DNA of 64,000 nucleotides from Spongiibacter sp. IMCC21906. GTDB taxonomy: Bacteria > Pseudomonadota > Gammaproteobacteria > Pseudomonadales > Spongiibacteraceae. The notes beneath the pieces are model-generated. The model was given only the letters and a program-made list of their open reading frames with translations. It did no database searches and had not been told where the DNA came from. The DNA lies in the NCBI RefSeq assembly GCF_001010805.1, contig NZ_CP011477.1, forward strand, positions 2,908,501 to 2,972,500, in the 5' to 3' direction. The position numbers were made by a program, and so were the translations under genes. Below, piece by piece: positions 3,096 through 36,988 of this stretch; the stretch's first letter is position 1; each line of letters starts with the position of its first letter.

Positions 3096-4031
3096 CTATT
3101 TAAATTCAGAAAGCCGCTGAAAGGCTTGGGTATATTCGTTTTTAAATTTATCCACAATTTCAGCAACGGTTTCATAAGAAGCAATCGCCCCCACGCCCTG
3201 GCCTGCAGACCAGACATCTTTCCAGGCTTTTGCCTCGCCACTCAGCTCATGCTCGGCATCCATTGCGGGCGTGGGTGTGTTATCAAGATCAATGCCAGCA
3301 GCATCCACACTGGGTTTGAGAAAATTGGCATGAACCCCGGAAATTTTAGGGGTATACACGATATCGGCTGCAGTTTTTTCAAGCAGCATGTCTTTATAAG
3401 GCTGACTGGCGAGACTTTCTTTAGCGGCAATAAAACGGGTGCCCACATAAGCAAAATCAGCACCGCAGGCCCGGGCTGCCAATATTGAATCGCCATTACT
3501 AATACAGCCTGAGGCAATAATCGTTTTATCAGTAAGTTGTTTTAACTCCGAGATAAAAGCAAAGGGGTTGTAAGTGCCAGCATGGCCACCTGCACCAGCG
3601 CACACCGCAATCAGGCCATCTACCCCCGCTTCCAGCGCTTTTTTAGCAAAGCGCACATTGGTGACATCATGAAAAACCAGACCACCGTAACTGTGGACTG
3701 CATCCACCACGTCTTTAGCTGCGCCCAATGAGGTAATCACAATGGGCACTTTATATTTCACCGTCAGCGCGATATCCGCAGCCAATCGAGGATTGGTTTT
3801 GTGAACAATCAGATTAACGGCAAAGGGGGCATCCTCTTCAGTCAACGCGGCTTGAACTTCTTGCAACCATTGTTCGTAGCCATCACTACTGCGCTGATTT
3901 AGCGCCGGAAAACTACCCACCACGCCAGATTTACAGCAGTTAATAACCAGTTCGGGGCCAGACACCAAGAACATCGGCGCAGCGATAACCGGCAACGACA
4001 GCCGATCTTTAAATATTTCGGGAAGGCTCAT
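3096..4031 (-). CDS. Nitronate monooxygenase-like flavoprotein (NPD family)
   Basis: This is an FMN-dependent TIM-barrel protein of the 2-nitropropane dioxygenase/nitronate monooxygenase family, 311 residues from the chosen start. Typical elements are PVIAAPMFLVSGPELV at the N-terminus, the central CAGAGGHAG loop, and GADFAYVGTRF in the phosphate-binding half. The ATG at 4029-4031 has AAGGA 8 bp upstream and avoids overlap with the preceding gene; a longer reading frame to 4070 would overlap it. In acyl-CoA degradation clusters these proteins are often annotated as NMO, but the physiological reaction may be a flavin-dependent enoyl or nitronate oxidation. Here it lies between an acyl-CoA dehydrogenase and a thiolase. 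Confidence 0.85.
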   Translation of the reverse strand: MSLPEIFKDRLSLPVIAAPMFLVSGPELVINCCKSGVVGSFPALNQRSSDGYEQWLQEVQAALTEEDAPFAVNLIVHKTNPRLAADIALTVKYKVPIVITSLGAAKDVVDAVHSYGGLVFHDVTNVRFAKKALEAGVDGLIAVCAGAGGHAGTYNPFAFISELKQLTDKTIIASGCISNGDSILAARACGADFAYVGTRFIAAKESLASQPYKDMLLEKTAADIVYTPKISGVHANFLKPSVDAAGIDLDNTPTPAMDAEHELSGEAKAWKDVWSAGQGVGAIASYETVAEIVDKFKNEYTQAFQRLSEFK

Positions 4032-4044
4032 TATCAATTCCTTA

Positions 4045-5196
4045 TCATTGGGCCAAAGCGTTTCTGGCAATAATCATACGTTGAATTTCGCTGGTTCCCT
4101 CATAAATACTGGTGATTCGAACATCGCGAGCATAGCGTTCGAGGGGATACTCACGATTGTAGCCATGGCCACCCAAAATTTGTTGGCCAGCATAACAAGC
4201 ACGATTGGCGGCTTCAGTGGCAAATAATTTTGCCATAGATGCCTGAGCAGCGAATGCATTGCCGCCCTCTTTAAGGTAAGCCGCTTGCATAAGGAGTAGT
4301 CTGGCAGCTTCCAGCTCTGTGTAGCTATCTGCCAACATCCACTGCAGTGCCTGGAAACTGGAAATGGGTTTACCAAATTGCTCCCGCTCTTGGGCATAGC
4401 TTTTCGCGTAATCAGTGGCGGCCAAACCAATACCCAAAGCAAGCGACCCAATGCCAATACGGCCACCCGCCAGCTCACCTAAGGCCACTTGATAACCTCG
4501 ATTTAGCTCGCCCATCAAGGCGTTTTCTGGAATACGACAGTTGTCAAAATAGACAGGATTGGTAGCCGAGCCTTTCTGACCCATTTTTTCTTCGGCGGGC
4601 CCCACTTCCAGCCCTGCCGTTTCTCGCTCTACCAAAAAACAGGAAATGCCTTTACCTCTAGGGGCCTCTTTATCTGTCACCGCCCAAACCACAAACACCC
4701 CGGCAAACTCACCACTGGTGATGTAAGCTTTGGAGCCATTCAATATCCATTCACCCCCATCCTTTACTGCACTGGTTCGCATGGCCGAAGGGTCGGAGCC
4801 TGCACCGGGCTCAGTCAAACAGAAACCCGCAGCAGGATATTCACCACTACAAATTTTGGGCAGGTACTGGCGTTTTTGCGCCTCGGACGCCACCGTTTGA
4901 ATAACCTCCGCCACCATATTGGTCACCGACACGGTTACTGCTGTAGAGGCACAAGCCCGAGCCAACTCAGTAATCGCCAAACTAAACGCAATGCTACCAG
5001 CGCCGCTTCCTCCAAAATCTGGCGCAATATTTAAGCCCATAAAACCCAGTTCGGCTAGGCTGCGAAGATTGCTAAAAAACGTTTCTTTACCCTCGCCGTT
5101 ATCCAAACTAGCGGCATTGCCAGCCAAGGCCTTTTGAGCAAACTCTCTGGCAGTATGCTGTATAAGCAACTGCTCTTCACTTAATGTCATATTCAT
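4045..5196 (-). CDS. Acyl-CoA dehydrogenase
   Basis: This 383-residue FAD enzyme forms the trans-2 double bond in acyl-CoA and passes electrons to electron-transfer flavoprotein. Its N-terminal helical domain, the middle beta-domain with CLTEPGAGSDPSAMRT and ITSGEFAGVFVV, and the C-terminal domain with REQFGKPISSFQ are all complete. The catalytic base is Glu366 in SIYEGTSE, the position used by short- and branched-chain enzymes. GGHGYNREYPLERYARD is also typical of the short/branched-chain class. The gene lies 31 bp after the CoA-transferase and 13 bp before the NMO-like gene, so the four are very likely co-transcribed. Confidence 0.95.
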   Translation of the reverse strand: MNMTLSEEQLLIQHTAREFAQKALAGNAASLDNGEGKETFFSNLRSLAELGFMGLNIAPDFGGSGAGSIAFSLAITELARACASTAVTVSVTNMVAEVIQTVASEAQKRQYLPKICSGEYPAAGFCLTEPGAGSDPSAMRTSAVKDGGEWILNGSKAYITSGEFAGVFVVWAVTDKEAPRGKGISCFLVERETAGLEVGPAEEKMGQKGSATNPVYFDNCRIPENALMGELNRGYQVALGELAGGRIGIGSLALGIGLAATDYAKSYAQEREQFGKPISSFQALQWMLADSYTELEAARLLLMQAAYLKEGGNAFAAQASMAKLFATEAANRACYAGQQILGGHGYNREYPLERYARDVRITSIYEGTSEIQRMIIARNALAQ

Positions 5197-27950: not shown

Positions 27951-28940
27951 TTAGCGAACGCTATCGCCATACACCGCTTTTAAGACCGGATCAGATAATT
28001 GATTATCAGCGCCGATCCGCTTAATTAAGGCCATCGCCGGACCGCCTCGCAGCCCCATTAAACTGATCTTGCCATCGACTACCATCGCGTATCGCTGGGC
28101 CACCGCATAAGCCAGCTGTACACGCTGACCATCATTGCCAAGAATTGACTGTCGTTGCAGGCACTGCAGCGTGTGCGCTCTATCACTAAACTGCAGCTCT
28201 AATGAAGCATCCATTAACTGAGCTGGCTGGTGATTCACATTCGGCGCTTGCCAAGCGTTCGCGTCATAGGGCTGAAAGTAATTCACTCTCAAACGCTGCA
28301 GGCCGTCATCACACTGTACGACCAGTTCCGCAAGGGCGTTATCAAGGCTGGCTCGAAATTCCGAGCTATTTTCATCAGCGCCCGCCGCCAATAAAACAAC
28401 CACGCTATCGCCACTGCCTTCAGCAGCCAGCGTCGCTAATGGTGCAGCACTACGCAGCGTTATACTGTCTCCTGGAAGGGCCCCATATAAATAGCTAAAG
28501 CTAAATACATTCTGTTCGTCATGCTTAATCAGCTCAGCCTGGGAGCTAGACGCCAAACCAGCGATAGCCTCCGCGCTGCAAAAGCTCACATCAGCAAAAC
28601 CCGCCAACGGTTCTACGGTTTTATCGTAAGCTTCGGGCAGTTGCCGCAGCTCAGTGAGTTCGCCGTTGAGATGGTATTGTCGATAGGCCCAAAACCCAGG
28701 AATGCGGGTTGCCAACATCCCGTGTATATCCCGCCAGTAAGCATAAAAGTCAGCACTGCTAACGCCCTCTCGCTTACCGAGTAAAGCCACCGTCGAAAAA
28801 GGCCCTGCTTCACCAGACCGGCACAGGGGCTCGCCATCGGGCGGTGGCGCAGCCTGAGCAAGAACTTCTGCAGGTGTACCCTGCAGACCGAGAAAAAGAC
28901 AACATACGCCCAAGGTTTTGATAATAGCTTTTTGGTACAT
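27951..28940 (-). CDS. Exported protein with EthD-like dimeric alpha-beta barrel domain
   Basis: A 329-residue protein starting at the ATG at 28940, which has AAGAAGA upstream. A signal peptide (IIKTLGVCCLFLGLQGTPAEVLAQA) should send it to the periplasm. Residues about 48-100 (TVALLGKREGVSSADFYAYW, then DIHG) match the EthD domain, which begins with a beta strand and a W-x(2-3)-H-G turn. The C-terminal half may hold a second, diverged copy. EthD proteins are usually cytoplasmic accessory proteins of P450 or polyketide pathways, so export is unusual. Function not recognised. Downstream of it lies an SDR gene; upstream the MITE-like element. Confidence 0.7.
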   Translation of the reverse strand: MYQKAIIKTLGVCCLFLGLQGTPAEVLAQAAPPPDGEPLCRSGEAGPFSTVALLGKREGVSSADFYAYWRDIHGMLATRIPGFWAYRQYHLNGELTELRQLPEAYDKTVEPLAGFADVSFCSAEAIAGLASSSQAELIKHDEQNVFSFSYLYGALPGDSITLRSAAPLATLAAEGSGDSVVVLLAAGADENSSEFRASLDNALAELVVQCDDGLQRLRVNYFQPYDANAWQAPNVNHQPAQLMDASLELQFSDRAHTLQCLQRQSILGNDGQRVQLAYAVAQRYAMVVDGKISLMGLRGGPAMALIKRIGADNQLSDPVLKAVYGDSVR

Positions 28941-28996
28941 GATCAAATCTTCTTATATTTATTAAAAAACACGAAACAATAATGTCGATCATTAAA

Positions 28997-29316
28997 TTAA
29001 GGCAGTTCTGATTAATTCGGTGATATCTCAAGCTTAGCCAAAAGCGGCTCAACAAGGCGCCGACATGAAGGAATGCTGATTGCCTTTCAAGTGGTGGCAA
29101 CGCAGTTGAGCCGCTTTTGGCTAAGCCCCGAGGGGCGGGCCTCTGGCGCACACTGAACTGCGTTGCCATGCTCATTAAGGACAACCAGCCTTAATCTCGG
29201 CAACTGCTCCTGCGTTGCGCTAACTCCTGCATCCATGCAGTCGTTCGCATCGCGCCTTGCCAGTGCGCGCCAGAGACTCCGTTGAAACATTACCGAATTA
29301 ATCAGAGCTGCCTTAA
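28997..29316. mobile_element. MITE-like, palindrome-rich element with 25-bp terminal inverted repeats
   Basis: The ends are 25-bp inverted repeats (28997-29021 and 29292-29316) with one mismatch, beginning TTAAGGCAG and containing CTGATTAATTCGGT. Inside are a perfect 22-bp inverted repeat (29032-29053/29105-29126), a perfect 13-bp pair (29095-29107/29156-29168), a 15-bp pair with one mismatch (29141-29155/29261-29275) and small hairpins at 29174-29195 and 29227-29240. No transposase is encoded. The palindromic TTAA at each end prevents a decision between target duplication and element end. The right TTAA contains the stop codon of the FAD-linked oxidase gene. Confidence 0.75.
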
Positions 29317-30740
29317 CTATAGCTGTCCAGTACTTTGTTTGGGTTAAGAATTCCTTTGGGGTCCAGGGTCGTTTTCAATAACTTCATCAAGCTGATTTCT
29401 TCAAGACTTCTGGACAGGTGTAGAAAGTCCTTCTTTTCAAGACCAATACCATGTTCGGCCGAAATACTGCCGTCGATACTCGCCAACGGTTCGTATACAC
29501 AATGCTCAACGGCCCGTCCTGCACCCGGCTCTTTGCTGCCACAGCCCACTGCGATATGCAAATTGCCATCCCCTACATGACCAAGAAAACACACCTTCCC
29601 TTCCGGCCACTTGGCTTTAATATTCTGGGTAACATCCGTCATATACTGCTGCATATCGCCAATAGGCATACTGACATCAAAGGCCTGAAACGGCTGCAGA
29701 TCCTTTACCACATATTCAAGGTCTTCACGTAACTGCCAAATGCTTTCTCGTTCTGCCTGCGATTTAGGTATCACCGCATCGGCAATTATTCCAGTTTCCA
29801 GTGCATCAACCAGCACTTGTTCAAAGCGGCCAGCGTCCAAATCAATATCAAAGCCCAGAGACTCGGTAATAACATAATAGGGATAGCTTCCCTCAATAGG
29901 CGCACTGTGACGACCCGGGGCGGTATTGATACCGTAAAAATGGGCATCCAGAACCTCAAAGGCGCTGAGGTTACCGCCCAGGCTTTTATCCATATAGCGT
30001 AAAAACCGGCTCACACTATCAAAATCATTCAGGGCAACCATCGCCGCATTTTCACTTCGGGGTTTCTCATAAAGGCGCAATACCAGTTTGGTAATAACAC
30101 CCAAGGTACCTTCGCTACCCATAAACAGCTGCTTAATATCGTAGCCCGAATTGTTTTTGAGCATCTTGTTCATCGAGCTGATCACGGTGCCATCCGCCAT
30201 CACCGCTTCCAGCCCCATGACTAGCGAGCGCATCATGCCGTAGCGAATCACTCGAATACCGCCAGCATTGGTAGCGGCATTACCGCCTACCTGACAAGAA
30301 CCCCTCCCTCCCAGATCCAGAGGAAAAATCAGCTCATACTGCTCAAGATTTTCTTGCAGGTTTTGTAAAATCACCCCGGCTTGTACAACCGCCGTTCGAT
30401 TCACCGTGTCTACAGACTCAATCTGATTCATTCGCTCCATAGACAAAATAATATCCTGGGGCCGGGTTTGCGTTGCCCTTACCCAACCCGACATACCCCC
30501 CTGGGTCACAACAGGACGACCAGCGTCATTGCACAGTTTTAAAACCTGAGAAACTTCTGCCGTGGTGGTGGGCCTCACCAATAATTGGCTCTCTACTCGG
30601 TCCATGAAATAACCTGGACTGCGAGAGGTAACCGTATCGCCTTGCAATACCCCGCTGCTGCCGACAATATCAATCAGCTGCGCGATAAAAGCACTATCCT
30701 CTGCATTGCTCACTGCTGCGGTGTCGCCATGCTTATCCAT
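29313..30740 (-). CDS. FAD-linked oxidase (D-2-hydroxyacid dehydrogenase, GlcD/DLD type)
   Basis: A flavoprotein of about 475 residues with a PP-loop FAD-binding domain (RPVVTQGGMSGWVRATQTRP; VGGNAATNAGGIRVIRYG) and a C-terminal oxidase domain with CFLGHVGDGNLHIAVG and SAEHGIGLEKK. These are signatures of D-lactate, glycolate and D-2-hydroxyglutarate dehydrogenases. It would oxidise a 2-hydroxyacid to a 2-oxoacid, which the nearby 2-oxoacid:ferredoxin oxidoreductase could use (inference). A GTG at 30749 overlapping the Rieske stop by 4 nt is an alternative start; the ATG at 30740 has GAAGG close upstream. The stop codon TAA comes from the end of the MITE-like element. Confidence 0.88.
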   Translation of the reverse strand: MDKHGDTAAVSNAEDSAFIAQLIDIVGSSGVLQGDTVTSRSPGYFMDRVESQLLVRPTTTAEVSQVLKLCNDAGRPVVTQGGMSGWVRATQTRPQDIILSMERMNQIESVDTVNRTAVVQAGVILQNLQENLEQYELIFPLDLGGRGSCQVGGNAATNAGGIRVIRYGMMRSLVMGLEAVMADGTVISSMNKMLKNNSGYDIKQLFMGSEGTLGVITKLVLRLYEKPRSENAAMVALNDFDSVSRFLRYMDKSLGGNLSAFEVLDAHFYGINTAPGRHSAPIEGSYPYYVITESLGFDIDLDAGRFEQVLVDALETGIIADAVIPKSQAERESIWQLREDLEYVVKDLQPFQAFDVSMPIGDMQQYMTDVTQNIKAKWPEGKVCFLGHVGDGNLHIAVGCGSKEPGAGRAVEHCVYEPLASIDGSISAEHGIGLEKKDFLHLSRSLEEISLMKLLKTTLDPKGILNPNKVLDSYS

Positions 30741-30745
30741 AACCT

Positions 30746-31060
30746 TCACTCCACCGCAATTCGCACAGTGCCATCTTCCACACTAACCGGATAGGTTTTC
30801 TGGGATAGCGACGGATCCATTAAACACTCGCCGCTGCGAAGGTCGTATTCCCAACCATGCCATGGACAAGTAATCACCATTTCATCATCGATGACTTCGC
30901 CCCGGCACAAAGGCCCACCGGCATGTCCACAAACCCCATCTACCGCATAAAATTCGCCATCAATATTAACCAAGGCAATCACTTGCTTGCCGTGTTCAAT
31001 TTTATGAATTTTCCCCGGCTGCAAATCGTCTACCTGGCCAGCAGTTATTGATTCTGTCAT
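30746..31060 (-). CDS. Rieske [2Fe-2S] ferredoxin
   Basis: A 104-residue Rieske protein. The two cluster-binding boxes are C-G-H in GVCGHAGGPLCRGE and C-P-W-H in VITCPWHGWEYDLRSG, giving the Cys/His pairs of a Rieske centre. It is soluble, with no membrane anchor. It sits 39 bp after a cytochrome P450 gene and directly abuts the FAD-linked oxidase, so it could carry electrons to the P450 or from the flavoprotein. Rieske proteins usually serve ring-hydroxylating oxygenases; none is near here. GAGGAGAAA stands before the ATG. Confidence 0.93.
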   Translation of the reverse strand: MTESITAGQVDDLQPGKIHKIEHGKQVIALVNIDGEFYAVDGVCGHAGGPLCRGEVIDDEMVITCPWHGWEYDLRSGECLMDPSLSQKTYPVSVEDGTVRIAVE

Positions 31061-36349: not shown

Positions 36350-36988
36350 AAAACATTATTATATTCAGCATATACGGATCACAGCATAGTACTGCAAAAT
36401 GGTAGTGTAGCGCGAAGGCAACTTACCCTATTGCTAGACTACCTAGTAAAACATCGCTGAAACATTATCGAACTGATCGCTTCGGTTTCGTTAACCAAGA
36501 CAAACTTCAGTGTTACCCATTATCACACCATGACAAGCACGGCTAATTTATTGAATCAAAACTTTAACCCTGTGTGGAAAAATCAAATTTGAATAGGGTG
36601 TATCGCCTATTTATAAACAGTCTAAAATCAGGTGTCTCTAGCGAGAGTGGTAGATTTCATCTCCGCCGCATAAGCGATTTGGCAATAGATAAGCGCACGA
36701 CGACAAAATGTTTCAGCCGAGTAATGTTAATAATTTGCAAGCTTCGCCAAGCATTTGAAAATTAGTACTTCACAACAATAAAGACCTACAAGCACAAGTA
36801 AACTTTACATAAATTGCTGGGAAGGTTGGCATAAATACCTCATCGGGCGATGCGGGCACGAGCAGGGAGAATGTCGGGACGAACATTTCTTGAAGTAGCT
36901 TAAAGCCACAAAGTGACCACAGAGAAAAAGTCCAGGCGAAAAAAAAGCGCTGCATATATGCAACGCTTTGATTTTCTTCGGAATTTGA
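36350..36988. other. Long intergenic region between AraC regulator and tRNA-Lys
   Basis: These 639 bp are AT-rich in the left half. Small open frames on both strands (for example the GTG frame at 36574-36765) have no ribosome sites and no recognisable product. The only clear element is the terminator at 36939-36969. The region may hold the AraC promoter or a decayed gene. Confidence 0.5.
36939..36969 (-). terminator. Rho-independent terminator downstream of tRNA-Lys
   Basis: On the minus strand AAAGCG pairs with CGCTTT, and the inner TGCAT with ATGCA, to form an almost unbroken stem at 36944-36969. A run of T residues (A-run 36939-36946) follows. It lies 20 bp after the tRNA 3' end. Confidence 0.85.

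Follow-up and report, generated by a model that had tools for sequence, protein, structure and literature searches.

MITEs are usually seen as transposons that have been reduced to their ends; in the element described here, on the contrary, a module of the interior is found again and again between ends of many kinds. The unit of the REPINs, which are associated with RAYT transposases, is made of two palindromes, one inverted relative to the other. Small size, lack of a transposase, terminal inverted repeats (TIRs), a 4-bp YTAR duplication and an IS5-group IS with one near-identical end, here in a genome of the same family, are features that the present element shares with MITEs of the IS5 group. 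The sequence YTAR (Py-T-A-Pu) is given as the IS5 target in the available text of two papers (PMC5493358; PMC10359306). Other MITEs are known for transcripts that fold, and RNase III cleaves Correia-containing mRNA at its TIRs, according to the accessible part of a review (PMC10969869). Another type of precedent is the put RNA of phage HK022, described in the accessible portion of the source as a folded nascent RNA of about 70 nt with two stem-loops that acts in cis against termination (PMC9378689). With regard to length, the R200 repeat of P. fluorescens measures 320 bp in the available text of its description (PMC2718517).

The window analyzed here is a 64-kb stretch of the chromosome of Spongiibacter sp. 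IMCC21906. Dispersed copies, YTAR ends, and the match of one end to an IS of the IS5 group show, on sequence grounds, that its positions 28997-29316 are a non-autonomous element of the IS5-group type, with TIRs of about 32 nt and a YTAR duplication, in agreement with the MITE-like nature proposed by an earlier note on this DNA. The element interrupts a string of minus-strand genes, in the order P450, Rieske, FAD-linked oxidase, [element], EthD and SDR. Its parts and immediate neighbors are as follows:

28997-29316, no strand: whole element, an IS5-type MITE; its 320 bp comprise the 4-bp target duplication on each side
28997-29000, no strand: left target-site duplication TTAA (YTAR)
29001-29031, plus strand: left TIR, GGCAGTTCTGATTAATTCGGTGATATCTCAA
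29032-29126, plus strand: arm A, with a 22-bp stem P1, unpaired AAGGC / AAC, P2 and the hairpin P3 (93.2 bits with covariance model R1, built on 15 arms; 92 bits with model R2, built on 83 arms; covariation)
29127-29135, no strand: inter-arm spacer, CCCGAGGGG, a small hairpin
29136-29280, minus strand: arm B, the fold of arm A on the opposite strand, larger by a 47-bp insert (47 bits with R1)
29197-29243, minus strand: the insert, a separate dispersed repeat of 47 bp within arm B, missing at the equivalent point in copies L007, L009 and L010
29281-29312, minus strand: right TIR
29313-29316, no strand: right target-site duplication TTAA, containing the stop codon of the oxidase (29313-29315, minus strand)
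29313-30749, minus strand: FAD-linked oxidase (PF01565, PF02913), upstream of the element
27951-28946, minus strand: EthD-domain protein (PF07110), downstream of the element

The outer inverted repeat detected by the repeat search (28997-29031 / 29282-29316) comprises 35 nt with 89% identity, and its first 25 nt correspond to the 25-bp terminal repeats with one mismatch that had been noticed earlier. The perfect internal pair of 22 bp is also present (29032-29053 / 29105-29126). As to the four further nested repeats once counted, nested repeats do exist inside the outer pair, but at the default thresholds of the search they are three (22, 16, and 15 nt). A stricter search (at least 18 nt, seed 12, arms no more than 600 bp apart) yields three inverted pairs in the whole window, two in the MITE and one that is a local palindrome at 36939. 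The fold of 28990-29320 has z values of -12.0 and -12.5 on the plus and minus strands, respectively, and none of 100 dinucleotide shuffles was as stable. The list of open reading frames (ORFs) and the Pfam search bear out that the element lacks a transposase: besides the oxidase, the only ORF of at least 80 aa that overlaps it lies at 28810-29184 on the minus strand and has no match in Pfam. A consensus scan of the window copy found neither promoter-like nor terminator-like sites inside it. The interior is formed by two paralogous arms of about 95 nt, inverted and approximately 10 nt apart, in each of which the stem P1, of 22 bp, is followed by an asymmetric loop (AAGGC / AAC), P2, and the hairpin P3. 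Two inverted palindromic units are thus common to this element and to REPINs and REPs; the difference is that the present arms have about 95 nt and internal loops, and that the element is provided with TIRs and a YTAR duplication. The IS5-group MITEs, for their part, differ from it in the conserved, covarying two-arm interior, which here is common to many TIRs.

In its own genome, the covariance model recognizes 26 arms, which form 11 two-arm elements and four solo arms. Six copies have the full 320 bp and differ from one another at 4-11 positions; in addition, there are about six diverged or deleted copies, plus fragments. Identical YTAR sequences flank eight of the 12 copies L001-L012 (TTAA in seven, CTAG in one), the ends of the remaining four being unequal, and CTAA is found at both ends of L063, from another genome. 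Since these four bases vary from site to site (TTAA, CTAG, CTAA), they represent a target duplication and not a part of the inverted repeat. Among 36 non-redundant elements, 14 have identical YTAR at both ends, whereas 63 other patterns with equal degeneracy average 0.16, and the highest of them (RTAY) reaches 5; a more lenient end table gives 24 of 52, with a scoring that is biased towards YTAR. The 20-mer of the TIR was found in records named Zhongshania, Spongiibacter, Neomelitea, and Haliea, as well as in unclassified MAGs. The search for copies in this genome and in its relatives, and the alignment for target duplications, which the earlier note had suggested, have therefore given many copies at unrelated loci and YTAR duplications at the element ends. 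A single RNA gene conserved in all genomes and without other copies, the outcome that the note regarded as contrary to its view, is contradicted and ruled out by this dispersal. Arm-less elements of about 53-56 bp also exist, in which two TIRs lie back to back (L064, 4370-4422; L083, 2478-2533); these are possible end products of deletion.

The closest IS was found in a genome of the same family (G020), in which an intact IS5-group transposase ORF of 335 aa (NF033581) lies between CTAA repeats. One end of this IS is GGCATCTCTGATTAATTCG, versus GGCACCTCTGATTAATTCG in most MITE copies, and the other is GGAAGGTCTGAATAATT. The match is limited to the terminal 19 nt of the one end, so the MITE did not arise from the G020 IS by internal deletion. 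An IS with a matching TIR was looked for in the genome of the window and none was seen. This genome contains six copies of an IS of the IS5 group (NF033581), weak candidates as the direct partner because their ends have only about GGxACCTCTG in common with the MITE; an origin by internal deletion from a resident IS was likewise rejected, on a single 10-nt match at chance level (E 0.56). Fused remnants of two IS types are found in G016, where MITEs of both TIR types are present; the remnants, of the IS5 group but different, are joined head-to-head at the start of a contig (L142, 1-980). In G203, a damaged IS has the end GGAGCCTCTGAATAATTC and a MITE has the TIR GGAGCCTCTGAATAACTC. The genome G289 has 76 matching TIR ends. 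Inspection by eye of the TGTACTGCGCC TIR ends in G289, G412 (an assembly in many contigs), and G220 revealed no two ends that face each other at 0.7-2 kb without further ends between them. Dozens of TGTACTGCGCC TIR ends occur in G289 and G412, many of them paired near 245 bp, the size of two arms, or at 141-168 bp, a shortened form, and an autonomous copy was detected in neither genome.

According to the earlier note, the element supplies the stop codon of the oxidase, so that its insertion or excision could change the C-terminus of the protein. The right TTAA indeed holds the stop (TAA at 29315-29313, minus strand). Nonetheless, the same TTAA is found at 28997-29000 and 29313-29316 as a duplicated target, from which it follows that the site before insertion would already have had a TAA, reading AGT TAA in the oxidase frame. 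The proposed comparison of C-termini gives the same answer: the orthologues of G014 and G001, which have no element, possess ends of equal length, and in the three proteins (those of G014, G001, and the window) these finish eight residues past GILNP, the last residues being GKVIDLEE, GKVFDLTR, and NKVLDSYS. The change of C-terminus is thus discarded, and the role of stop-codon supplier is rejected on the basis of these orthologues together with the target duplication; the element apparently did not create the codon. Landing at stop codons is not surprising, since YTAR has TAA or TAG on both strands, and L009 offers a second case, in which an ORF of 104 aa has its stop inside the target-site duplication. 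The check for an empty site gave none at strain level, the gap in G014 and G001 being occupied by another reading frame. This frame closely follows the oxidase in both genomes (L094 and L095, about 3485-4250), seems GST-like by reading of its sequence, and is absent from the window, where the MITE stands instead.

The arms are distributed well beyond this genome. Of 194 genomes sampled from the order, model R1 detects them in 49 (E ≤ 1e-3). Model R2 does so in 85 of the 274 sampled from the class (E ≤ 1e-4) and 44 of the 249 from the phylum (E ≤ 1e-5). These samples overlap, all include the genome of the window, and had no more than 15-21 candidates scored per genome and scan. Among the 44 positives of the phylum, 24 are labeled only as belonging to the same phylum, and 20 of those 24 are of one family. 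For most genomes the scans took a single best locus, with 30 as the upper limit, which leaves weak members under-sampled, and two of the locus searches took in hand-chosen subsets (51 of 166 and 72 of 195 loci). The TIRs of the arm-bearing elements differ widely, as seen in GGCACCTCTGATTAATTCGG, GGAAGCTCTGAAAAATACCC, TGTCCCGTCTGGCTAATTCG, and CCCGGCCACATAATATG, and where the boundary is clear, the distance from the duplication to the arm is 28-34 nt. Adjacent arms are arranged as plus then minus in 53 of 53 pairs, and in 48 of these they lie 9-11 nt apart; the same set includes 22 arms with no detected partner, in some cases owing to a contig end or a shortened second arm, and there are one-arm forms with both TIRs (for example, L128, L130, and L170). 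At the gathering threshold, Rfam 15 matched only two tRNAs in the window and nothing at the element, and with E values up to 5 it gave no match in L001, L033, L034, or L047. An interior that accompanies many TIRs, and that has no match in the cognate-like IS, must be retained for a purpose other than recognition by the transposase.

The fold of the arms is sustained by covariation. In the alignment A3 (128 arms), 91.1% of the cells are paired versus 53.3% in shuffles, and cells with a double change number 1502, versus 448 ± 19 when shuffled and 250-394 when slid. A double change is found at all 32 pairs (29.7 on average in shuffles, with one of 500 reaching 32) and the further pair types are 131 (124.8 in shuffles, 13 of 500 reaching that figure); these two of the five measures are barely above the shuffles. 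In the alignment A2 (83 arms), double changes occur at 31 of 32 pairs and in 834 cells versus 242.5 ± 12.5. It is important to note that both alignments were fitted to the model, which favors its structure.

A second and stronger line of evidence comes from mismatches. In a DNA palindrome, a transition appears with equal frequency as G.T on one strand and as A.C on the other. In DNA, G.T is a mismatch, whereas RNA accepts G.U as a normal pair. If the fold is needed on one strand, G.T is kept and A.C is rejected. In 87 non-redundant arms, pairs 5-19 of P1 contain 102 G.T and 11 A.C (sign test 1e-19; such tests count arms as independent, and some kinship remains after the 80% filter). This main count omits pairs 1-4 and 20-22, which give 13:16, with no asymmetry, and 16:0, respectively; the ratio is 131:27 over all 22 pairs of P1, 31:1 in P2, and 19:1 in P3. 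Most of the excess resides in pairs 14-16 (67:2), the rest of pairs 5-19 giving 35:9 (p 1e-4). At pairs 14-16, the wobbles are 5′U.3′G in 60 cases and the reverse in seven. These directional wobbles cluster at three neighboring pairs, columns 14-16 with 207-209 of A3, and P1 of arm A in the window is perfect and has no wobble. The asymmetry is found in both arms, on opposite strands (32:6 in the first position and 42:3 in the second, excluding six of 40 non-redundant elements whose orientation could not be assigned). An arm set collected through the loop motif and screened only for Watson-Crick pairing gave 41:3 in 42 arms, or 17:2 and 18:1 by position once five arms that could not be oriented are excluded. 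On the contrary, when TIR stems were scored in the same manner in 34 non-redundant elements, the result was 37:33 (p 0.72), a count that excludes elements with fewer than 18 of 32 TIR positions paired or near a contig end. Redundancy was removed at 80-85% identity, or when at least 27 of 32, or at least 28 of 35, positions next to the arm were equal. Among the eight unpaired positions of AAGGC/AAC, seven are 97-100% constant and one 85% in the 87 arms; these arms were found with models or motifs that contain AAGGCG/CAACG, and the constancy is partly due to this ascertainment.

The large excess of G.T over A.C in the arms, and not in the TIR stems, indicates selection on a folded single strand. 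These comparisons show that selection maintains in each arm, on the strand proper to it, a single-stranded fold around a nearly constant AAGGC/AAC. The earlier proposal of a large multi-hairpin RNA is strengthened by the two covarying arms and has to be amended in that there is one arm per strand; the RNA itself is predicted. The count of G.T against A.C, with the TIRs as internal control, offers a simple way to discriminate between RNA-level and DNA-level selection in palindromic repeats.

The folded form is probably RNA, made when transcription of a neighboring gene crosses the element. Read-through of this type would follow from the absence of a promoter-like site inside the element, and the inverted layout ensures that transcription entering from any side reaches first the arm in the correct orientation, which makes the orientation of the insertion irrelevant. 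Tentatively, the arm may act in cis, its target being the transcript that crosses it or the RNA polymerase, in such a way that the host would pay little for an insertion between co-transcribed genes. Candidate actions would be the relief of Rho-dependent polarity, as in the phage put RNA, or the setting of transcript processing or stability, either of which would benefit an element landing in operons; the HK022 RNA is a phage leader, and its likeness to the arms would be one of function, by analogy only. In the window, the oxidase-EthD gene string would then stay expressed through the insertion. On a broader and equally tentative proposal, the double-arm module could be a widespread class of structured RNA, cargo of IS5-type MITEs across the Pseudomonadota, that moves between TIRs, acts in cis from either side, and makes insertion tolerable. 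With regard to gene context, seven of the 12 copies in this genome are between co-directional ORFs, two between convergent, and three between divergent ones (longest flanking ORFs, with no gene finder); in the 46 elements with ORFs on both sides, the figures are 24, 9, and 13, with no clear orientation bias in these crude calls, and the ORF distances of 0-2 nt in that table are an artefact of cutting the sequence at the element.

It is rather unlikely that the arms work instead as folded single-stranded DNA, in a cruciform or a lagging-strand hairpin, serving as a site for host enzymes (replication restart, recombination, or IHF-like) or as an aid to end pairing in transposition. One correctly oriented arm per strand in 53 of 53 pairs and genes without a clear orientation bias are what such a function would accept, and single-stranded DNA, too, would favor G.T over A.C to some extent; but G.T is a mismatch in DNA, and 5′U.3′G is frequent at three neighboring stem positions, and one-arm forms with both TIRs exist (L128, L130, and L170). 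The very stable folds on both strands might also suggest a bidirectional transcription terminator or insulator. This is improbable, given that the consensus scan detected no terminator-like site inside the element, that seven of the 12 copies of this genome are between co-directional ORFs, and that only nine of 46 elements are placed tail-to-tail, with no bias, unlike the P. fluorescens repeats as they appear in the available text of PMC2718517.

An ordinary MITE, whose inert palindromes are kept complementary by template switching of the DNA polymerase, is a very improbable reading. It would account for the nearly perfect P1 of many arms, arm A of the window included, for TIRs that diverge and yet stay complementary, and for the outermost four P1 pairs, with their 13:16 and no strand asymmetry. 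Such a correction is blind to the strand, however, and the ratios are 102:11 at P1 pairs 5-19 (131:27 in all P1) as opposed to 37:33 in the TIR stems. Neither would it produce positioned and directional wobbles, an unpaired AAGGC/AAC with seven positions 97-100% constant and one 85% (the ascertainment bias being noted), or a two-arm layout that recurs with different TIRs. Finally, as the element lies in a gap between genes that follow one another on one strand, it might evoke a cis-regulatory RNA that belongs to the oxidase-EthD operon alone, but the chances of this are practically negligible, as many copies are at unrelated loci and none follows the orthologous oxidases of G014 and G001.

A folded RNA carried within a MITE, the reading preferred here, also has to be placed among the folded transcripts already described. 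The Correia, ERIC, and QMITE elements share with the present one the folding of their transcripts (a predicted fold in our case) and are set apart by their description: in the accessible part of the review, no interior common to several TIR types is described for them (PMC10969869). No description of the two-arm interior was found in the literature searched, from which most subscription papers fell outside coverage; R200 could be related to the present element, by size alone. MITEs and IS5 targets are already known, and the new part is the conserved two-arm module, so that the interior of the element seems to be a structured module, hitherto undescribed, that travels with selfish DNA. Should the arms be RNA, a cis-acting RNA module with no Rfam 15 family would have been spread by such DNA through a sizeable share of the sampled Pseudomonadota (44 of 249 genomes).

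The insert of arm B at 29197-29243 (minus strand) belongs to a repeat of its own, of 47-48 bp, which runs from CGACTGCATGGATGCAGGAG to GCAACGCAGGAGCAGTTGCCGA and contains two small palindromes. A search of phage records with the element gave no match, and the matches in plasmid records, five large ones of Pseudoalteromonas, are restricted to the insert region. The repeat of 47-48 bp occurs without arms in several genomes of other families (L039, L057, L041, L042, L043, L045, and L046), and the MITE copies of the genome studied here present both filled and empty sites for it.
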